Assembly (NCBI GenBank): GCA_903932865.1
Contig: CAIZHQ010000025.1
Coordinates: 1 to 64,000, forward strand
From: an uncultured Burkholderiales bacterium
GTDB taxonomy: Bacteria; Pseudomonadota; Gammaproteobacteria; Burkholderiales; Burkholderiaceae_C
Length of the DNA: 64,000 nt
Direction of reading: 5' to 3'
Below the pieces are notes generated by a model, which was not told the origin of the DNA, searched no databases, and saw nothing but the letters and a program-made list of their open reading frames with translations. Position numbers and translations under genes: made by a program. This document shows positions 16,948-27,833 of this stretch, in pieces. Each line of letters begins with the position of its first letter. Position 1 is the stretch's first letter.

Positions 16948-17751
16948 TCACACCGCGTAACCGGGTGACACCTTGTCGGCCAGGCGCAGCATGGCCGGCC
17001 ATTCTTTCCAGCCCAGCGGGCTGCGCCCCTCGGGGTATTCGCGCAGCGCGGCCTGGTTGAAGCCCAAGCGGCTGATTTGCTCGGCCACACCGTCCGGCGG
17101 AAAGTTCAATTCTTGCCCGCAGGCCATCGCGTCCAGCTGGGCCTGGCAGGCTTTTTCAAGGTGCCACATGCTGCTGAAAGCTTCGGCCACCGTGTAGCCC
17201 ACCACCAGCGTGCCGTGGTTGCGCAAGACCATGACCATGTGGTTGCCCAGATCGCTGGCCAGGCGCTCGCGCTCTTGCAGATTCACAGCCAAGCCCTCTG
17301 ACTCGTGGTACGCCACTTTGCCGTGGAACATCATGGCGTGCTGGCTCAGCGGCAGCAGGCCGCACTTGAGCATCGAGATCGCCATGCCGGCACGGGTGTG
17401 CAAATGCAGCACGCAATGGGCATCGTCGCGCGCCGTGTGAATGGCGCTGTGGATCACGAATCCGGCACGGTGCACGTCGTGCGGGCTGTCGTCCACCTTG
17501 TTGCCATCGCTGTCGATCTTGACCAGGCTCGACGCCGTGATTTCGTCAAAAGACCAGCCAAAGGGGTTGATCAGGTAATGCTGTGTGCCCGGCACCCTGA
17601 GCGAAATGTGGGTGTAAATCAGGTCGGTCCAGCCGTGGTGCGCCACCAACCGGTAGCAAGCGGCCAGGTCAATCCGGGCCTGCCACTCTTGGGGCGACAT
17701 GTGGGCGGGCGCTGGGCCGCGGGTGGCGTGCAGATCGGTCAGTGGTGTCAC
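16948..17751 (-). CDS. Class II aldolase/adducin-family protein
   Basis: GWTDLIYTHISLRVPG, DAHCVLHLHTRAGMAIS, VLRNHGTLVVG. Confidence 0.9.
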   Translation of the reverse strand: MTPLTDLHATRGPAPAHMSPQEWQARIDLAACYRLVAHHGWTDLIYTHISLRVPGTQHYLINPFGWSFDEITASSLVKIDSDGNKVDDSPHDVHRAGFVIHSAIHTARDDAHCVLHLHTRAGMAISMLKCGLLPLSQHAMMFHGKVAYHESEGLAVNLQERERLASDLGNHMVMVLRNHGTLVVGYTVAEAFSSMWHLEKACQAQLDAMACGQELNFPPDGVAEQISRLGFNQAALREYPEGRSPLGWKEWPAMLRLADKVSPGYAV

Positions 17752-17862
17752 GTTGGGGCTCCGGAAAAAACGCGGGCTGCGCTCAAGCGAAAAGGCTATT
17801 TCACTGTATCAGGCAAGGCAGTGAAAGCTGAGCCACAAGTGACCACCTGCGGCAAAGAGCGC

Positions 17863-18606
17863 TCAGCGCAGCGGGGCCTGGCGCAGCAAAACAATGTTGC
17901 GGTAGCCCAGGCGGATCAGGCCTTCCTCCTGAAAATGCCGCAGCTGCTGGTTCACCCGCTGACGCGAGGCAGAGGCGGCTTGGGCCAGGTCGGACTGGCT
18001 CACGCGCAGCATCACGCCATCGGGCACGGCCACGCTGTTGAATTTGGCAATGCGCTCTAATGTGGCCCACACGCGTTGCTCGAGGCTGTGCATGCTTTGA
18101 TCGGCCAGCGTGTCCAACAGATGATTGATGCGCAGGCCGAGGATGCGCAGCAAATCCACCGCCACCACCGGATCGCGGGTGATCAGGTCAACCAAGCGGT
18201 TGCGCTCGATGTGCAGTACCTGCGTGGTGCCCACGGCCACCAGATCGGCAGGGTAGGTGGTTTCTGCGAACACCGAGCTCAAGCCCGAAATTTCGCCAGG
18301 CAGCATCCAGCGCAGCAAGTGCTCTTCGCCTTCCGGGGTGGTCACGCTCACGCGCAAACGCCCTTTGACCAGCAGCAAGGCGGTCGACGTGGCTTGGCCC
18401 CGGCTGAGCACCACTTGTCCTTCGGTCCATTCGCGCAGCACGCCCACGCTGTGCAAGGCTTTGGCGGAGCGGGCCGTCAATGCGGCGTTCTCTGCCCAAA
18501 CTTTGGTGAACACGTCGGCATCGAGCGCTTTGTATGCTGGCTGGCGCACTGTGCGCTGCTTGGTATTGAAAGGACGGATGGGCGGCAAAGGCATGGTGTC
18601 TTTCAT
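17863..18606 (-). CDS. Crp/Fnr-family transcriptional regulator
   Basis: cNMP-binding-like N-terminus and HTH VSQSDLAQAASASRQRVNQQLRHFQEEGLI. Confidence 0.9.
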   Translation of the reverse strand: MKDTMPLPPIRPFNTKQRTVRQPAYKALDADVFTKVWAENAALTARSAKALHSVGVLREWTEGQVVLSRGQATSTALLLVKGRLRVSVTTPEGEEHLLRWMLPGEISGLSSVFAETTYPADLVAVGTTQVLHIERNRLVDLITRDPVVAVDLLRILGLRINHLLDTLADQSMHSLEQRVWATLERIAKFNSVAVPDGVMLRVSQSDLAQAASASRQRVNQQLRHFQEEGLIRLGYRNIVLLRQAPLR

Positions 18607-18642
18607 TCTGCGGCGAAAAGTTTTTTTGAGTGCTTTCCCCTA

Positions 18643-18664
18643 AATTGTCACATCAGAAACAATT
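18643..18664. promoter_or_regulatory. Palindromic operator candidate between the Crp/Fnr gene and tauA-like gene
   Basis: AATTGT-N10-ACAATT perfect inverted repeat in the divergent intergenic region. Confidence 0.6.
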
Positions 18665-18740
18665 CGTGGCCTCTGGGGGCCATTAAATCTGGGCACCGAG
18701 CTTGACGGTGATCAAGTCAAAGAACCCCACTGGAGACGAC

Positions 18741-19739
18741 ATGAAATTTTCTGCCCCCGCCTTTGTTCGCACCACACTGGGTGCCATCGCCCTGACTTGG
18801 GGTGCCAGCGCCATGGCGCAGTCCGTGGTGCGCTTTCAGGACTATCCCGGCACCGGCAATTTGATGGTGCGTGTGGCCCAAGAACAAGGCTTTTGCCAGC
18901 AAGCGGGCATTCGCTGCGAACTGAGAACAATCCCCGGAGCGCCGCTCGGCATGCAGACCATGCTCTCCGGTGACATCGAAGTGTTTTTTGGCCCCATCGA
19001 AGTGGCCGCTGCTGCGGTGGCCCGCAAGGCGCCCATCTCCATCATCGCCGCAGGTTTCACCGATCCGATATTTTTCATGGCCGCAGGTGCAAAAACCGAA
19101 TTGGAGACCGAAAAAGAAGGCTATCCCGGCGTGGTCAAGTCCTTCAAGGGCAAGAAAATTGGCGTGACTCAGCGCGGCTCGGGTGCCGAATTTCAAGTCA
19201 TCGACATGCTGGCAGATGTGGGCCTGACTGCGAACGACGTGACCTTTGTGGCCGTGGGCGCGCCCGACACGGCCTTTCCTGCACTCACACGCGGCCAGGT
19301 CGACCTGATCATGACCTTCTCGCCTACCGATGGCATGTGCGAGGTGCTCAAGGCCTGCCGTGTTGTGGTGGATCCCCGCAAAGGTCAAGGACCCAAGAGC
19401 TTGCTGGCCACCCGTGGCGGCTCCGGCACCATGGCGGTGAAGGCCGAGTGGGCAGCGGCCAATCCGCAAACGGTGGCCGCCATCCGAAGGACGCTGGAGT
19501 TGTCGGAGGCGTTCATCGCCAACCCGGCCAACTTCGGCCGCACGCTGGAGATCCTGCGCAAGACCTTTGCCCTGCAATTGCCCAACGCAGAACAGATCGC
19601 CGAAGTGGCGCTGCGCAACACCATCAGCAACTTCAAGGCCCGTGGCACCGTGCCCGCCATGCAGGCGGTGGCCAATGCCATGACCGAAAACAAGCTGTTG
19701 CCCGGCAGAGTAGAAATGGCCCCCGCAGTATTGCCTTGA
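18741..19739 (+). CDS. NitT/TauT-family ABC substrate-binding protein (TauA position)
   Basis: Signal peptide MKFSAPAFVRTTLGAIALTWGASAMAQ; NMT1-like fold sequence. Confidence 0.88.
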   Translation: MKFSAPAFVRTTLGAIALTWGASAMAQSVVRFQDYPGTGNLMVRVAQEQGFCQQAGIRCELRTIPGAPLGMQTMLSGDIEVFFGPIEVAAAAVARKAPISIIAAGFTDPIFFMAAGAKTELETEKEGYPGVVKSFKGKKIGVTQRGSGAEFQVIDMLADVGLTANDVTFVAVGAPDTAFPALTRGQVDLIMTFSPTDGMCEVLKACRVVVDPRKGQGPKSLLATRGGSGTMAVKAEWAAANPQTVAAIRRTLELSEAFIANPANFGRTLEILRKTFALQLPNAEQIAEVALRNTISNFKARGTVPAMQAVANAMTENKLLPGRVEMAPAVLP

Positions 19740-19773
19740 ACTTCGGACATCGCGGTATTTTCAGGAACTCTTC

Positions 19774-20538
19774 ATGATCGACGCACAGCGCATCGACCTG
19801 AGCTTTGACGGCACCAACCTGGTGTTGCAGGGCGTGGACCTGCACGTTAAGGCGGGGGAGTTTGTCGCGCTCGCAGGGCCGAGTGGCTGCGGCAAAACCA
19901 CCTTGCTCAACCTGTGCGCGGGGCTGGTGGATGTGCCTGCAGGTCAGCGGCTGCTGGTCGCGGGCGAACAGCCGGCGCTCGGCAGCCAGGCTGTGGCTTA
20001 CATGTTGGCACGCGACAGCCTGTTTCCCTGGCTCAATGCACTGGACAACGCCGCCTTTGGCCTGAAGGTGCGGGGTGTGCCCATCGCACAGGCCCGGGAA
20101 AGGGCCGCGGTGATGCTCAAGCAGGTGGGGCTGGGCGGCTCCGAATACCACCTGCCCAAAGCCCTGTCTCATGGCATGCGCCAGCGCGTGGCACTGGCGC
20201 GCACCTTTGCCATGCCCTCGCCCCTGTTGCTGATGGACGAGCCCTTTGGGGCATTGGATGCGCAAACCAAGCTGCAGCTGCAAGACCTGCTGCTGCAGCT
20301 TTGCCAAGATGGCAACCGAACGGTGCTGTTTGTGACACACGACTTGTCTGAAGCGGTGGCCCTGGCCGACCGGGTGATGGTGATGTCCTCGCGTCCGGGG
20401 CGCATCGTGGCCGATGTGCAGGTGCCGCTGGCGCGTCCGCGCTCCATCCGTGAGCTGCAAACCAGCGATGACTTCCGCCGCACCTACACCCAAGTCTGGA
20501 AACATCTCGAAGAAGGGTGGGTGCACCATGAAGGCTGA
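19774..20538 (+). CDS. ABC transporter ATP-binding protein (TauB position)
   Basis: GPSGCGKTTLLNLCAGL, LSHGMRQRVALARTFAMPSPLLLMDEPFGALD. Confidence 0.92.
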   Translation: MIDAQRIDLSFDGTNLVLQGVDLHVKAGEFVALAGPSGCGKTTLLNLCAGLVDVPAGQRLLVAGEQPALGSQAVAYMLARDSLFPWLNALDNAAFGLKVRGVPIAQARERAAVMLKQVGLGGSEYHLPKALSHGMRQRVALARTFAMPSPLLLMDEPFGALDAQTKLQLQDLLLQLCQDGNRTVLFVTHDLSEAVALADRVMVMSSRPGRIVADVQVPLARPRSIRELQTSDDFRRTYTQVWKHLEEGWVHHEG

Positions 20539-21283
20539 AACACTTCGCACGCTGGCGCAACATGTGCTGTTTGTCTGCGTGTTTCTGGGTCTGTGGGAGT
20601 GGGGTGCCCGAGCCGGTTGGGTGGACCCGAGTTTCATGGGCAGCCCACTTGGCATCATCACGTTCACGCTGGAAAACCTTGCCAACGCCCGCTTGTGGGG
20701 CGATTTGGGCTACACGCTGCTGGCCGTGTTCGCGTCTTTTGTCATTGGCTCGGTCGCCGCCATGGTCACGGGCCTGGCCTTTGTCACCTGGCCCAAGTTC
20801 GAGGCTTTTTGCGACCCCTACATTTCGGCCTTCAATGTGCTGCCGCGCATCGCCCTGGTGCCCTTGTTCATTTTGTGGTTTGGCTTAGGCGTCGGCTCCA
20901 AGATCGCGCTGGGGGTTTCGCTGACCTTCTTCATCGTGCTGTCCAGCACGGTGGCGGGTATTCGGGGCGTCAGCCAAGACCATGTGACGCTCACCCGCAC
21001 CCTGGGTGCCAGCAGTCGGCAGATGTTTTTCTCAGTCACCTTGCCGGGCGCTGTTCCTGTGCTTTTCTCGGGGTTGCGCCTGGGCGTGATCTACGCCTTG
21101 CTGGGCGTGGTGGGCGCAGAAGTCATTGCTTCCGAACGCGGCCTCGGGCAGCAACTGGCTTATCTGGGATCCACATTCAACGTCAACGGCGTGTGGTCGC
21201 TGCTGTTTGATTTGGCACTCATCGGGGTGCTGATCATGAAGCTGATGAACTGGATCGAACGCCGCTTGCTGCACTGGCAATGA
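20528..21283 (+). CDS. ABC transporter permease (TauC position)
   Basis: BPD_transp-type TM protein; ALVPLFILWFGLGVGSKIALG. Confidence 0.9.
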   Translation: MKAETLRTLAQHVLFVCVFLGLWEWGARAGWVDPSFMGSPLGIITFTLENLANARLWGDLGYTLLAVFASFVIGSVAAMVTGLAFVTWPKFEAFCDPYISAFNVLPRIALVPLFILWFGLGVGSKIALGVSLTFFIVLSSTVAGIRGVSQDHVTLTRTLGASSRQMFFSVTLPGAVPVLFSGLRLGVIYALLGVVGAEVIASERGLGQQLAYLGSTFNVNGVWSLLFDLALIGVLIMKLMNWIERRLLHWQ

Positions 21284-21317
21284 ATTCAGTGTGCCAAAAA
21301 AAATTTAGGAGAGAAAA

Positions 21318-22367
21318 ATGAAATTTCGCCACATCCAGGTGGACCCGATGACGCCCACCATCGGCGGCATGATCAGCGGCGTTGACCTGAACACCACCCG
21401 TTCCGAAGACGTTTACGAAGAGATCAAGCAAGCGCTGTGGCAACACGGCGTGGTGTTTTTCCGCAAACAGGCTTTGAAGCCCGAGGCCTACATTCGCTTG
21501 GGGGCCAATTTTGGTGAAATGGAGCAACACGAGTTCTTCCCGCACATCGAAGGGCATCCGCAAATCCAGTTGATCTCCAACCAGGGCCACGAAGCCCCTG
21601 AGACCGATCGCTGGCACACCGACGTGACCTTCCGCAAGAAACCCAACATGGTATCCATCTTGCGCATCACCGATCTGCCCCCGTCGGGGGGTGACACGAT
21701 GTGGATGCACGGTGGCGCTGCGTATGACGCGCTCAACCCTGGCATGCAACAGATGCTGGAGGGCCTGCAGGCCGACCACGATTTGCCTTGGCACTTTCGC
21801 CGCATCAACGCCAACGAACGTCTGGCACAGCGTGCCTCGGCCAAGAGCGGCATGATGGTGCAGGCCAGTGCACAAGAGTGCAAGATGATCGAGAACACCC
21901 CCACGGTGACGCACCCGGCCGTGATCACCCACCCCTACAACGGCCGCAAGATTTTGTTCGTCAACTCGATCTGGACCAAGCGCTTGCTGGGGATGCACAT
22001 GGACCTGTCCGAGGCGGTGCTGAACATGCTGTATGAGTGGGTCAAAAAGCCCGAATTCATGGTGCGCTTTCGCTGGGAAAAAGACTCGCTGGCCATGTGG
22101 GACAACTGCGCCACGCAGCACTATGCGGTGTTTGACTACGCGCCGCACTACCGCGCAGGCCAGCGCATGACCTGCGGCAGCTTTGTGCCCACGCTCAACC
22201 CCGGTGCTGCCGCCCCGGCAGGGCAGCCTTCGGTGATGCGCCAGTTGCTGGACACCACCCGCATGCAAGCGGCCAGCCCGCGTGAGCAACAAGCGGTGGA
22301 AGCCATCTTCAGCGCCCTCGAAAGCGTGGACCTGAACGCGGTGGCCAGTGCCGCCCAGCGACGTTGA
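21318..22367 (+). CDS. TauD/TfdA-family 2-oxoglutarate/Fe(II) dioxygenase with C-terminal extension
   Basis: WHTDVTF (H-x-D), LPPSGGDTMWMHGGAAYDAL, distal TQHYAVFDY and Arg region; about 50-aa extension after the catalytic core. Confidence 0.93.
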   Translation: MKFRHIQVDPMTPTIGGMISGVDLNTTRSEDVYEEIKQALWQHGVVFFRKQALKPEAYIRLGANFGEMEQHEFFPHIEGHPQIQLISNQGHEAPETDRWHTDVTFRKKPNMVSILRITDLPPSGGDTMWMHGGAAYDALNPGMQQMLEGLQADHDLPWHFRRINANERLAQRASAKSGMMVQASAQECKMIENTPTVTHPAVITHPYNGRKILFVNSIWTKRLLGMHMDLSEAVLNMLYEWVKKPEFMVRFRWEKDSLAMWDNCATQHYAVFDYAPHYRAGQRMTCGSFVPTLNPGAAAPAGQPSVMRQLLDTTRMQAASPREQQAVEAIFSALESVDLNAVASAAQRR

Positions 22368-22385
22368 ACCCCCGCTGAACCCGGA

Positions 22386-23891
22386 ATGCAAGCCCTCATG
22401 AGTTCCAGCAACCCCATCGATCTGGCCGACCACGACCTGGCCGCTTTGCAGGAGGCCCGCGACTTGCTGGGCCGCGCCCGGCAAGCCGCTGCCACGCTGG
22501 CGCTGTGGACGCCCGAAGAGGGTAAACGTGTGGCCAAAGCAGTGGCCGCCGCCTTGCTGCCGCGCGCCGAGTTTTATGCCGAATGGGCTGTGCGCGAAAG
22601 CCGCATCGGCAAAGTGGCCGACAAGATCGCCAAGAACCAGATTGCTTGCACCCTCACGCCCACGGCTTGGGACAACGTGGCGCTGGGCGGTGTGCGCCGC
22701 AACGATGCATTGCGCATCGTCGAAATCGGCCGCCCTGCGGGGGTGGTGGTGGGTTTATCCAACTCCACCTCGCCGGTGGCCACCATCATCTTCAAGACCA
22801 TCATGTGCCTGATGACGCGCAACGCGCTGGTCATCTCGCCGCACCCGGTGGCGCTGGGTTGCTGCACCGCCGTGACGCAAGAATTGCAAGCGGCCATCGA
22901 AGCCGCAGGTGGTCCGGTCCATGCGGTACAAATTCTGACGCGCCCCACGGTCGAGGCCACTGGCGCCCTCATGCGCGACAGCCGCACTGACGTGATTTTG
23001 GCCACGGGTGGCACGCCCATGGTGCGCGCCGCTTATGGCTCGGGCAACCCCGCCATTGGCGTGGGTTCGGGCAATGTGCCGATTTATGTGGACGCCAGCG
23101 CCGACATCGAGGCGGCTGCCGCCCAGATTGTCAACGCCAAGAATTTCGACCACGGCAGCCCCTGCTCAGCCCCTTCGGTGCTGATGCTGCACGCCAGCAT
23201 CGCCGCGCAGATGCAGCAAGCATTGGCCCGACAGGGTGCGCATGTGTGCACCGACGCAGAGGCACTGCAAATTCAAAACCACGCCTTTCCTGGTGGCAAG
23301 TTCAACGGCAAAGTGGTGGGCCGCCCGGCATTTGAGATTGCCCATGCCGCCGGTGTACAGGTGCCGGTCGATTGTCAGGCGCTGGTCTGCCCCATCGCCC
23401 AGCCGCAAGCGGGCCATGTGTTGCTGAAAGAAAAGCTCTCGCCCATCTTGGGCTGCGTGGTGGTGCCGGGCATGGACCAGGCCATTGAGATGGCGCGCCT
23501 GATGCTGCAGCACAGCGGCGCAGGCCACACCTCGGGCATCCACACCGCCAACGCTGAGCAAGCGGTGGTCTGGGGTGCGGCACTCGACTATTACCGCGTG
23601 GTCGTGAACGGCTCCACGGTGCACGACAGCACCGGCGCCAACACTGGCTTGCCCTACACCTTCACCATCGGCACCGGTTACGCGGGCAAAAGCTCGGTGG
23701 ACTGCAACGTCGGGCCCGAGCTGCTGGTCAACTGGAAGCGCGTGGCCTTTCCGCTGCCGGGTGGCTGGGCTGGGGCCATGGCTTCGGGCGCGGCTTTGCC
23801 CGCCAGCCCAGGCACCACATCCACCCTCACGCCTGAACTCCAGGCCACCGTCCTGCGCATCGTGCAGGAAGAACTCGAACACCTTCGCTGA
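22386..23891 (+). CDS. Acylating-type (CoA-dependent) aldehyde dehydrogenase of BMC type, with C-terminal encapsulation-peptide-like helix
   Basis: PduP/EutE/AdhE-like: STSPVATIIFKTI, ILATGGTPMVRAAYGSGNPAIGVGSGNVP, KNFDHGSPCSAPS (Cys); tail ALPASPGTTSTLTPELQATVLRIVQEELEHLR. Confidence 0.9.
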   Translation: MQALMSSSNPIDLADHDLAALQEARDLLGRARQAAATLALWTPEEGKRVAKAVAAALLPRAEFYAEWAVRESRIGKVADKIAKNQIACTLTPTAWDNVALGGVRRNDALRIVEIGRPAGVVVGLSNSTSPVATIIFKTIMCLMTRNALVISPHPVALGCCTAVTQELQAAIEAAGGPVHAVQILTRPTVEATGALMRDSRTDVILATGGTPMVRAAYGSGNPAIGVGSGNVPIYVDASADIEAAAAQIVNAKNFDHGSPCSAPSVLMLHASIAAQMQQALARQGAHVCTDAEALQIQNHAFPGGKFNGKVVGRPAFEIAHAAGVQVPVDCQALVCPIAQPQAGHVLLKEKLSPILGCVVVPGMDQAIEMARLMLQHSGAGHTSGIHTANAEQAVVWGAALDYYRVVVNGSTVHDSTGANTGLPYTFTIGTGYAGKSSVDCNVGPELLVNWKRVAFPLPGGWAGAMASGAALPASPGTTSTLTPELQATVLRIVQEELEHLR

Positions 23892-23900
23892 AAGCCCGAT

Positions 23901-24515
23901 ATGTCCACTTTGCGCAGCTACATTTTTCTGGACCGCTTGCAGCCACAGCTCATGTGTTTGCTCGGCTCCACAGCCCGTGGTTTTCTGCCGCGCCACAACG
24001 ACGCGGCCATGGTCATCGAAGTGGCCCCCGGCATGGACATCGAGTGGTTGACCGACATCGCGCTCAAGCACGACGATGTCAAGCCCGGCAACCTGGTGGT
24101 CGAGCGGCAGTTCGGTTATTTGGAATTTCACGGCCAGTCTTCCTCGTCGGTCAAGTCGGCGGGCGCGGCCGTTTTGGATGCCATGGGTGTCAGCGAGAAA
24201 AGCGTGCTCAAGCCCGAAATTCTGGCCTCCAAGGTGATTGACCGGGTCGACGGTTACCACGCGTTTTTGATCAACCGCAGCAAGGCCGGCAGCATGCTCT
24301 TGCCCGGCGAGTCGCTCTACATCATGGAGATGACCACCTCGTCTTATGCGCTGCTGGTGGCAAACGAAGCTGAAAAAGCGGCGAACGTCAAGTTGGTGGA
24401 TTGCCGTTTCATGGGCCCTGCCGGGCGGCTGTACCTGTCGGGCACACCGTCTGATGTCCGCACTGCCGCTGAGGTGGCCGAGGCCGTGATCCGCGATGCC
24501 GCAGGTGCCGCATGA
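23901..24515 (+). CDS. BMC-T (tandem BMC domain) shell protein 1
   Basis: SYIFLDRLQPQLMCLLGSTARGFLP..AMVIEVAPGMDI..LTDIALK..GNLVVERQFGYLEFH; homologous by eye to 26133-26798. Confidence 0.88.
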   Translation: MSTLRSYIFLDRLQPQLMCLLGSTARGFLPRHNDAAMVIEVAPGMDIEWLTDIALKHDDVKPGNLVVERQFGYLEFHGQSSSSVKSAGAAVLDAMGVSEKSVLKPEILASKVIDRVDGYHAFLINRSKAGSMLLPGESLYIMEMTTSSYALLVANEAEKAANVKLVDCRFMGPAGRLYLSGTPSDVRTAAEVAEAVIRDAAGAA

Positions 24516-25471
24516 GCACAGATGCTTTGCGCGAACAAATTCGGGCGCAGGTGCGCACGGCTTTGAGCGGCAGCAAAGCCGCGGGCGCAGACACATCGGT
24601 GGCATCGGTGACCGCGCTGATGCAGCGCTTTGAAGCCGGTTATGCCGCTGTGAATGCCGAAGCGATCGTGGCCTGCTTTGCCCCCGATGTGGTGTGGACC
24701 TTGCCCGATTCGCGTGTGCTCCGTGGCCGCGCGGCATGCCTGGCGTTCTTGAAGGAACGCTTTGCCAGCCCCGCAGGCCCCCAATTTTCGGATTCGCACT
24801 TGAATGTGCTGGGCCAGACGGTGGTGCAAAACTACAAAGTGAGCGTGCCCCTGCCCGGTGGCAAGGCGCTCACGCTGGACGGCACCGACGTGTACCAAAT
24901 TCGCGATGGCCTGATCGCCGTCAAAGACGCTTATTGGAAGCAGATTGGCGCGCCCAAGCCTGCAACAGCGGCAACGGCTGCTGCGCCAGCGACTGCGCCT
25001 CAGGGCGTGGTGGTGCCCTTGCGTGTGGGCACTGCGGCACAGGTACAGGCCCTGACCGATTTGTTCAAGCGTTTGGCCGCCAGCCCGGCACTGCTGCAAG
25101 CGGCGCAATCGGGCCTGCTGCGTTTTGACATGCGGGTGGACGAGGCTGCGGTCAAGGCGGTGGCCGCTGCTGGGCCTGCTGCACCCGTGACGTCGGCCAT
25201 GGCCTCCACCACAGCCACCGACCCGGCGGCCTGCTGTTCGTCGTGCAAAGCAGGCAAGGCCTGCGAGTGCAAGGGCGACACCTGCGCGCTGCACGATCAC
25301 CCAGCTGAAGACATACCCGAACTCAAGGGCGTGATCGGCGAAAAACTGCTCAAAACCTTGCCGCCGAGCGTCAAAACCGTTCGGCTGCACCCCAAGGCGG
25401 TCATGACCCCCTTGGGCAAAGAAGCCCTGCGCAAGCGCGGCATCACCATTGACCGAGGAACTACACCATGA
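24512..25471 (+). CDS. BMC-locus protein: N-terminal encapsulation-peptide-like helix, SnoaL/NTF2-like domain, Cys-rich segment, C-terminal tail
   Basis: MSTDALREQIRAQVRTALSG; SVTALMQRFEAGYAAVNAEAIVACFAPDVVWTLPDS...; CCSSCKAGKACECKGDTC; VRLHPKAVMTPLGKEALRKRGITID. Confidence 0.75.
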   Translation: MSTDALREQIRAQVRTALSGSKAAGADTSVASVTALMQRFEAGYAAVNAEAIVACFAPDVVWTLPDSRVLRGRAACLAFLKERFASPAGPQFSDSHLNVLGQTVVQNYKVSVPLPGGKALTLDGTDVYQIRDGLIAVKDAYWKQIGAPKPATAATAAAPATAPQGVVVPLRVGTAAQVQALTDLFKRLAASPALLQAAQSGLLRFDMRVDEAAVKAVAAAGPAAPVTSAMASTTATDPAACCSSCKAGKACECKGDTCALHDHPAEDIPELKGVIGEKLLKTLPPSVKTVRLHPKAVMTPLGKEALRKRGITIDRGTTP

Positions 25472-25737
25472 AAACAGGAACCGTGATCGGCCGCATCGTG
25501 GCCAGCAAACGTCTGCCCGAGTTGCCCGCGGGCGCCTTGCTGGAGGTGCAGCTGGACTACCCCAAGGACGTGGTGGTCTGCTACGACCCCATGGGCTGCG
25601 GCATTGGCGAGCGCGTGATGATCACCATTGGCGCACCTGCGGCCTGGTGGTTCGCCCCGGCCCACCCGCGTGTGGTGGCCGATGCACTCATCATCGCCTC
25701 GCTCGACAACTACGACACCCCAACGCCGATGCGTTGA
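25468..25737 (+). CDS. BMC-P pentameric vertex protein (EutN/CcmL family)
   Basis: MKTGTVIGRIVASKRLPELPAGALLEVQL..MGCGIGERVMITIGAPAAW. Confidence 0.92.
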   Translation: MKTGTVIGRIVASKRLPELPAGALLEVQLDYPKDVVVCYDPMGCGIGERVMITIGAPAAWWFAPAHPRVVADALIIASLDNYDTPTPMR

Positions 25738-25830
25738 CCTCATGACGGCCCATGCGTTGAAACTTTTCCCTTCACCCTTTCCCTCAACCCCTTTCATCAA
25801 CCCTTTTTTTAACCCCTCAAGGAGACTCTC

Positions 25831-26103
25831 ATGTCACAAGCCATCGGAATGATCGAAACCAAAGGTTATGTTGCTGCTTTCGCGGCCGCTGACGCCATGG
25901 TCAAAGCCGCCAACGTCAACATCGTTGGCAAAAAAGAAGTCGGTGGCGGCCTGGTCGCCATCATCGTTTCGGGCGACGTGGGTGCCGTCAAGGCTGCCAC
26001 CGAAGCCGGTGCAGAAGCCGCAGGCGCGATCGGTGAAGTGGTGTCTTGCCACGTCATCCCACGTCCACACGCTGACGTGACCAAAGCCTTTGACGGCAAG
26101 TGA
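25831..26103 (+). CDS. BMC-H hexameric shell protein (EutM/PduA/CcmK family)
   Basis: [71 protein letters not shown]. Confidence 0.97.
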
Positions 26104-26132
26104 TCGCAGGCTGTTGCAGATAAGGAGGCCGC

Positions 26133-26798
26133 ATGGCCACAACTAAAAAAACCGCAGCGCCTGCCAAGCCGGCCGCTGAGCTTCGGGTTTACCTGACGCT
26201 CACCGACCTGCAGCCCCAGTTCTCCTCGTGGATGAGTTCGCCTCTGGGTGCACGCGGCTACGTGGCGATGCAAGGCACCCACGCGCTGCTGGTGGAGATC
26301 GCCCCCGGGCTGTCCATCCAGCGCGTGATTGACTTGGCTCTGAAGGCCGAGCCCACGCTGGAGCCGGGCATTTTGGCGGTCGAGCGGCAGTTTGGCGTGC
26401 TGGAGTTGCACAGCAACGACGGCGCGGCGCTCAAGCGTGCCGGCCAGGTCATCCTGGACTGGATGGGGGCCAAGGCCGAAGACCAGTTGCGCCCGCATCT
26501 GCTGTACAGCGACATTCTGGAAAACGTGACCGATCAGCACGCCGTGCTGATGAACCGCACGCGCCAAGCCAGCATGGTGCTGCCCGGCGACCACATGTTG
26601 CTGATGGAAGTGGCCCCGGCCCTGTTTGGCGCCCACATCGCCAACGAAGCCGAGAAAGTTGCCCCCGACCTCACCTTGGTCGAGTGCAGCATGATCGGGG
26701 CCAGCGGCCGCATGTACCTCACAGGCAGCATGGCCTCGCTCGAAAAAGCCAAGGCGCATGTGGAGCAACTGCTGTCGGAGATCCCCGGACGCGGTTGA
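26133..26798 (+). CDS. BMC-T (tandem BMC domain) shell protein 2
   Basis: LRVYLTLTDLQPQFSSWMSSPLGARGYVAMQGTHALLVEIAPGLSIQRVIDLALK..VERQFGVLELHS. Confidence 0.87.
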   Translation: MATTKKTAAPAKPAAELRVYLTLTDLQPQFSSWMSSPLGARGYVAMQGTHALLVEIAPGLSIQRVIDLALKAEPTLEPGILAVERQFGVLELHSNDGAALKRAGQVILDWMGAKAEDQLRPHLLYSDILENVTDQHAVLMNRTRQASMVLPGDHMLLMEVAPALFGAHIANEAEKVAPDLTLVECSMIGASGRMYLTGSMASLEKAKAHVEQLLSEIPGRG

Positions 26799-27096
26799 TC
26801 GCTTCGGTTCTGCACCAGCCAGACCGCACATCGCTGAACACAGCATTCTGAGTGTGCTGTGCTTCAAATTTGCATCCACTGAGTTGTCGAGTCAGAGGCT
26901 GGGCGCCCACTGTGCTTCGCAAGCTGGGCGAAACATATACTCGAAAAGATGGCAACCCCGGACGTTGCTTGGGGTGTTATGTGCTGTGGGTACCCGTTTG
27001 ACCCTCATCACTTTCGCTGGCCAAAAGGCTTCGCCCGTGATGTCTTTATTCAAAAAATTTGAAGCCACCCCTGGGGTCAAGCACCCGGGTTGAGGA

Positions 27097-27833
27097 ATGC
27101 CCATGCAAGAGTGGATCTACCCTGTTGGGGTTGTTTTAGCAGGCTATACCGTACTGGGTTTGACAGGCTTTGGTTCGGCCATGGTGATCGTGCCTTTATT
27201 GGCCATGAATTGGCCCTTGCCCGAGGTGGTGGCGTTGACCTTGTTGATGGATGTGCCCGCTTCGGCATTTCACAGTTGGCTCAACTCGAGTCAAGTTCAG
27301 TGGCGCGAGCTGCGCCGCCTCTTGCCCGGACTGGTGATCGGAACGGCAGCGGGTTTGTCGTTAACGCCACACATGGAGTCGCGCTGGCCCTTGCTGGTGC
27401 TGGGCTTGTATGTGGCAGCGGTGGGCCTGAAAACCTTGCGTGCGCAAACAGCTGAGCAGCACCGGCCAGCCAAGGGCTGGGCTGTGCCTGTGGGCATGGT
27501 GATTGGGCTGGTGGAAATGCTGTTTGGCACCGCAGGACCACTGGTGGTGGCATGGCTCAGCCGTCGCTTGGCCGATGCACAGCAAATACGGGCCAGCACA
27601 CCCATGATCATTGCCGTAGCCGCCACCACCGTGTTGGCAGGCATGGCCCTGGAAGGCCGGCTGACCAGTGATTCGCTCTGGCAGCGCTGGAGCGGCCTCA
27701 TCGGCGTGGCCCTTTGGGGCGTGTGGTCAGGCCACCGTCTGGCGCACCATGTGCCCATGGCGCACTGCGCCAGATGATTTGCGCCTTGTTGGTGGTCAGT
27801 GGTTTGCTGCTGGCACTGGGCGCATTGCGTTGA
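27097..27833 (+). CDS. TSUP-family (TauE/SafE, sulfite-exporter-like) permease; apparent frameshift near 3' end (main ORF 27097-27777)
   Basis: GLTGFGSAMVIVPLLA, multiple TM; -1 frame continues ALRQMICALLVVSGLLLALGALR* to 27833. Confidence 0.8.

Follow-up and report, generated by a model that had tools for sequence, protein, structure and literature searches.

Encapsulation peptides are terminal helices carried on poorly conserved, disordered linkers; they bind grooves that lie between the shell tiles and can also associate with one another (PMC12339742, PMC11157265). An extension of another kind is found in the ARO BMC of the Actinobacteria, where a ring-cleaving 2-aminophenol dioxygenase (pfam02900) is posited as the signature enzyme, is paired with an aldehyde dehydrogenase, and has an N-terminal extension that is not predicted to be helical and is present only in BMC-encoding strains (PMC10470539). 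The ARO aldehyde dehydrogenase does not depend on CoA and lacks an encapsulation peptide. The MIC-type metabolosomes (PMC8217296, PMC4207490) have an incomplete core: the locus encodes an aldehyde dehydrogenase and a shell, but neither a PTAC nor an alcohol dehydrogenase is recognised in it. For MIC3, CcmP-like BMC-T proteins are reported, and no signature enzyme is named for MIC2-7 in the published text. Neither taurine nor the word dioxygenase is mentioned in the main text of the BMC catalogue (PMC8217296), and a literature search yielded no paper linking TauD to a BMC as cargo.

The locus described here lies in a 64,000-nucleotide stretch of DNA from an uncultured freshwater Burkholderiales bacterium (the window). 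As in ARO, a dioxygenase that is a candidate signature enzyme is paired with an aldehyde dehydrogenase (AldDH), and its extension is restricted to BMC-associated members of the family. However, the enzyme is a Fe/2-oxoglutarate TauD-family oxygenase rather than a 2-aminophenol dioxygenase, its extension is C-terminal and predicted to be helical, and the AldDH belongs to the acylating type and carries a normal encapsulation peptide. There is no aminophenol dioxygenase of the ARO type among the locus genes examined, and the PF02668 protein is the only dioxygenase among them. The locus is also like the MIC types in that it has an AldDH and shell genes and no PTAC or alcohol dehydrogenase among the genes examined at 16948-27777, and it may already figure among the MIC types with its signature enzyme unrecognised.

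Gene organization of the locus

TauD (21318-22367; a 349 aa open reading frame) is the first gene of a compact run, all on the forward strand, with the order TauD-AldDH-BMC-T-adaptor-BMC-P-BMC-H-BMC-T. The CoA-acylating AldDH (22386-23891) is EutE/AdhE/SauS-like, with scores for NCBIfam PRK13805 and EutH_ACDH that are below the equivalog cut-offs, and comparison of C-termini places an encapsulation-peptide-like helix, TPELQATVLRIVQEELEHLR (23829-23888), at its end, preceded by a linker. It is followed by a CcmP-like, tandem-domain BMC-T shell protein (23901-24515; PF00936 E 2.5e-8; beta_CO2some_P E 1.1e-63, below cut-off), an adaptor-like protein with a SnoaL-like domain (24512-25471; PF12680 E 4.8e-16), a BMC-P pentamer shell protein of the EutN/CcmL type (25468-25737; PF03319 E 9e-13), a BMC-H hexamer shell protein (25831-26103; PF00936 E 7e-26 at 25840-26067), and a second CcmP-like BMC-T shell protein (26133-26798; beta_CO2some_P E 1.4e-48, below cut-off). 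With BMC-H and BMC-P genes and a BMC-type AldDH, this is a metabolosome-type locus.

The adaptor has an N-terminal encapsulation-peptide-like helix, DALREQIRAQVRTALSG, and a C-terminal motif, VMTPLGKEALRKRGI, both of which are common to its equivalents in related BMC loci. Encapsulation-type helices are at the same termini of the AldDH and the adaptor in the related loci read, so that two proteins of the locus other than TauD already carry ordinary peptides of the encapsulation type. The SnoaL-like domain lies between the adaptor helix and the C-terminal TPLxxxALRxRGI motif; the shorter counterparts encoded by L048, L086, and L134 lack this domain, and in L033, L037, and L041 the adaptor match is limited to the C-terminal half.

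Upstream of TauD is an ABC transporter (18702-21283, forward strand; TIGR01728 SsuA_fam E 6e-18, below cut-off) that is kept in most BMC-TauD loci and is presumed to import the substrate. It is composed of an SsuA-like binding protein (18702-19739), an ATPase (19774-20538) and a permease (20414-21283). Divergent from it is a Crp/Fnr-type regulator (17863-18606, reverse strand; PF00027, PF13545) that is kept in the Limnohabitans loci. A TauE/SafE-type sulfite exporter (27097-27777) follows the BMC operon, and because it is detected in only two related loci (L021 and L024) it lends weak support to sulfite production. Two other loci have peculiarities of their own: in L025 the second BMC-T gene is ~5 kb further downstream than elsewhere, suggesting an insertion within the BMC operon, and L038, a BMC contig resembling those of Limnohabitans, was assigned to an Akkermansia muciniphila MAG, in which it is probably a contaminant.

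The dioxygenase and its C-terminal extension

The catalytic domain of TauD (residues 1-287; 21318-22178) matches Pfam PF02668 with an E value of 1.8e-59. The Fe ligands H100, D102, and H268 and the 2-oxoglutarate arginine R279, together with R283, are in invariant columns of the homologue alignments; their roles are those established for TauD. Judged by the PF02668 match, the HxD...H ligands and the 2-oxoglutarate arginine, the protein is a TauD/TfdA Fe(II)/2-oxoglutarate dioxygenase. It is 35-37% identical to the E. coli and Pseudomonas putida TauDs (1gqw, 3pvj) and has the same fold and the same Fe and 2-oxoglutarate ligands, although these enzymes are without a C-terminal extension. Window residues H71 and R283 align with H70 and R270 of the two TauDs, the roles of which we likewise assume to be the established ones. 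The pocket differs by alignment, with F74, T96, and W219 at the positions of Y73, N95, and F206, and the score against the taurine dioxygenase equivalog NF007104 (255.9 bits) falls short of the cut-off of 313; for these reasons taurine is not assumed to be the substrate.

The AF2 model used here is of a monomer, was built with more diverse homologues from viral contigs, and has a mean pLDDT of 81. An earlier model from 20 close sequences (mean pLDDT 44) was set aside, its catalytic domain being unusable. In the model used, pLDDT is mostly >90 across the catalytic domain, the last element of which is the strand at 280-286. Foldseek matches include TauD structures 3pvj, 6edh, and 1os7, and the best fold matches are 275-281 residues long. 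The closest PDB sequence is E. coli TauD (1gqw, 283 aa), the alignment of which covers window residues 5-286 only, in agreement with the statement in the original prediction that E. coli TauD ends soon after the RATILGD strand; none of the TauD-family sequence matches in the PDB reaches beyond window residue ~297.

What follows the domain is exactly the C-terminal sequence that had been read earlier, ...RMTCGSFVPTLNP-GAAAPAGQPS-VMRQLLDTTRMQAASPREQQAVEAIFSALESVDLNAVASAAQRR. An extension had been placed from 22198 onwards; it is indeed there, but 22198 is inside the codon for N294, and the conserved tail proper is at 22233-22364 (residues 306-349, forward strand), which we propose as an encapsulation tag. 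Between domain and tail is a low-confidence, probably disordered linker (residues 288-305; 22179-22232, forward strand) that varies in length and sequence, and in which residues 296-305 have a pLDDT below 50. In the tail, of ~44 aa, AF2 predicts helices at 306-309, 313-318, 321-335, and 339-348 with pLDDT values of ~50-70, the two main ones being those of 15 residues (321-335) and 10 residues (339-348), and the shared motif is SPxExxAVxAIFxALxxxDLxxVAxxA. The hydrophobic i+3/4 spacing described in the original prediction is found at V327-I330-F331-L334-V337. The amphipathic helix of that prediction fares less evenly, in that a helix is predicted but its amphipathicity is weakly supported, with a hydrophobic moment for the window protein at p ~0.2 against shuffles. 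The moment of the 15-residue helix is at p 0.01-0.04 in L086 and L089, and most accepted-type encapsulation peptides of these loci have a moment no better than that of the window helix; the measure is uninformative as a test of amphipathicity at such lengths.

The tail is conserved and the linker is much less so. Among close relatives the linker is 17-23 aa long with a dN/dS of 0.15, the tail has a dN/dS of 0.08-0.09 and no indels, and the catalytic domain has a dN/dS of 0.045. Linker lengths differ by up to tens of residues among L086-L089 and L048, and the linker is unalignable in L048 and L086. Tail-tail pairwise scores between divergent BMC-linked TauDs are above those of all shuffles (2000/2000; z 10.8-15.5), and BLASTP aligns the window and L086 tails with 47% identity over 34 residues (E 8e-10), so that tail similarity is above chance. 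The predicted arrangement of a domain, a low-confidence linker and terminal helices, seen in the AF2 model and the alignments, is that of encapsulation peptides. There are differences nonetheless: the peptides of PduP, PduD, and EutE-type AldDH have one amphipathic helix of 15-20 residues, whereas the TauD tail has two main helices and does not resemble in sequence the AldDH peptides of related loci, which are REEIRRhhhEEL-like.

Distribution of the tail

If the extension is a targeting tag it should be restricted to BMC loci, as the original prediction recognised, and this is how it is distributed: counting only proteins with a readable C-terminus, the tail is present in 36 of the 37 BMC-linked homologues and in 0/33 of those with no shell gene found nearby, five of the latter being judged on loci of only ~2.6-3.9 kb. 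The extension is thus not common outside BMC loci, and presence in BMC-linked proteins with absence from their cytosolic relatives is what one expects of an encapsulation peptide. Extra residues (20-42) do occur in some of the 33, with a sequence unrelated to the tail, and two further paralogues from the same genome (L118 and L119, omitted from the tree) are tailless too. Close Limnohabitans relatives make up most of the 36, so it is the divergent branches that carry the independent weight. On two such branches the tail is kept at 47-58% identity in the catalytic domain, in L086-L089 and in L048, an alphaproteobacterial locus.

A scan of 84,980 species genomes yielded 34 loci; wherever the sequence extends sufficiently beyond TauD there are shell genes and, L046 excepted, the tail. 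Among 401 genomes of the family there is a gap between the BMC-type TauDs (E <1e-98) and the others (E >1e-66), with the BMC-free L085 falling in the upper group; regions of up to 20 kb around the TauDs of both groups were searched with the locus proteins. In the window's genus (90 genomes), TauD is present in 29, BMC-P (PF03319) in 30, and both in 28. The gene in the single TauD-only genome (G1220) is on a contig apparently cut within the operon (cf. L020), and the two BMC-P-only genomes are 82%-complete assemblies, with a different BMC-P in G1232. The tail alone has no match on plasmids, and in 201 family genomes its matches are the TauDs of the BMC loci in the window and G294 and two further, weak hits (E 0.01-0.05) that are probably due to chance. 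A class-wide search found no additional TauD of the BMC clade.

The BMC-linked TauDs form essentially one clade, with two label changes on the tree. The sole exception among the 37 is L046 (4350-4588), a BMC-locus TauD 68% identical to that of the window with a degenerate tail, in which the main tail helix is replaced by unrelated sequence and the last ~12 residues, ...VELDLDQVVAYARRR, are kept. A frameshift was considered and is unlikely because the end stays in frame with the family motif DLxxVxxxARR. L085, the one tailless counter-example inside the BMC clade, has a catalytic domain 58% identical to the window's and ends ...CGDFEPSA at 293 aa. It is placed beside the Limnohabitans branch, with a long-branch flag; the branch that comprises L048, L085, and the remaining members has support of 97/81, and the exact position of L085 has 86/60. 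Its genome (99% complete) has no PF00936 match in a search that recovers the family in E. coli and Synechococcus controls, and the tail is thus lost in a BMC-free genome. The idea that BMC genes are elsewhere in that genome was rejected on the same genome-wide search. There is no second tailless TauD copy in the genus of G478.

Possible roles of TauD and its tail

The same shell set, with BMC-T proteins 57-63% identical to those of the window, is found in an order whose assignment to the Alphaproteobacteria we regard as probable (L090, L135-L143), and in most of these loci TauD is replaced by a kinase-like gene and a class III PLP enzyme upstream of the AldDH. With this pair at the TauD position before the AldDH, the slot looks like that of an aldehyde generator, and by analogy TauD would occupy the aldehyde-generator position. 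The gene set resembles an amino-alcohol kinase/phospho-lyase route to an aldehyde; kinase and PLP phospho-lyase pairs make aldehydes from amino alcohols. In L134, which has the same shell set, neither TauD nor the kinase/PLP pair is near the AldDH, and the next gene product after the shell proteins is a FAD-dependent dehydrogenase/glycine-cleavage T-type protein. A comparable Crp-ABC-TauD cassette with no BMC is found in L099; the TauD there is tailless and is followed by an aldehyde dehydrogenase of the non-acylating type. Together, the alphaproteobacterial loci and L099 suggest that the tail and the shell belong with the form of the pathway that is acylating and compartmentalised. L092-L093 also have comparable Crp-ABC transporter-TauD cassettes with no BMC.

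We think it probable, at roughly 70%, that TauD is BMC cargo, likely the aldehyde-generating signature enzyme, and that the linker-plus-helix tail is a docking element. The Fe(II)/2-oxoglutarate domain would use O2 and 2-oxoglutarate to oxidise a substrate brought in by the transporter, which is probably a sulfonate or a sulfate ester, and would release an aldehyde inside the compartment. The adjoining AldDH, retained there through the encapsulation peptide at its C-terminus, would then trap the aldehyde as an acyl-CoA before it leaks. The TauD tail would bring the enzyme into the forming cargo/shell assembly and may dock on the shell, the AldDH or the adaptor. The enzyme family, the SsuA-like transporter and the conservation of H71/R283 speak for sulfonate/sulfate-ester chemistry. 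The original prediction had the dioxygenase as cargo with a possible BMC targeting tag; the distribution of the tail does track the BMC, and from it we infer physical encapsulation.

The tail may instead bind the AldDH or the adaptor and not the shell, giving a metabolon inside or at the compartment. The tail differs in sequence and length from the peptides that the AldDH and the adaptor carry in these loci, which would fit such a partner, as would the mutual association of encapsulation peptides that drives cargo co-assembly (PMC12339742). We consider this version unlikely, although nothing decisive speaks against it, and with TauD still as cargo it shades into the explanation preferred above. 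A role for the tail in oligomerisation or stability of this TauD branch, for instance at a dimer or tetramer interface and with no part in targeting, would be compatible with the monomeric AF2 model and with conservation at a dN/dS of ~0.08-0.09. However, the linker is of low confidence and variable length, L085 of the same clade manages without the tail in a BMC-free genome, and solved TauD-family enzymes are without such an element, all of which make this role improbable.

Least plausible to us is that TauD is a cytosolic neighbour feeding aldehyde to the compartment, with the tail a lineage-specific appendage that tracks the locus by ancestry. That the BMC-linked TauDs are essentially one clade, and that independent gains are therefore not seen, is in keeping with common ancestry, but the tail stays under constraint across beta- and alphaproteobacterial branches in which the linker diverges, and the BMC-free clade member L085 lacks it; we give this account very little credence.

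Many metabolosomes of the BMC catalogue have an aldehyde dehydrogenase but no known aldehyde-making enzyme (PMC8217296), and the cargo reading supplies a testable candidate, an O2- and 2-oxoglutarate-dependent enzyme. Because there is a BMC-free relative without the tail, the tail also provides a natural experiment, controlled for phylogeny, on the requirements of an encapsulation tag. We see about an even chance that the locus represents a new metabolosome class of aerobic freshwater bacteria, in which an in-shell Fe(II)/2-oxoglutarate signature dioxygenase would release an aldehyde in an O2-dependent reaction (e.g. from a sulfonate), the tag would be a two-helix element unlike the single-helix peptide, and the shell set would be reused with a kinase and PLP module in other lineages. 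If TauD is indeed cargo, this would be a second oxygenase-driven compartment after ARO, with implications for the passage of O2, succinate/CO2, and possibly sulfite through the shell.
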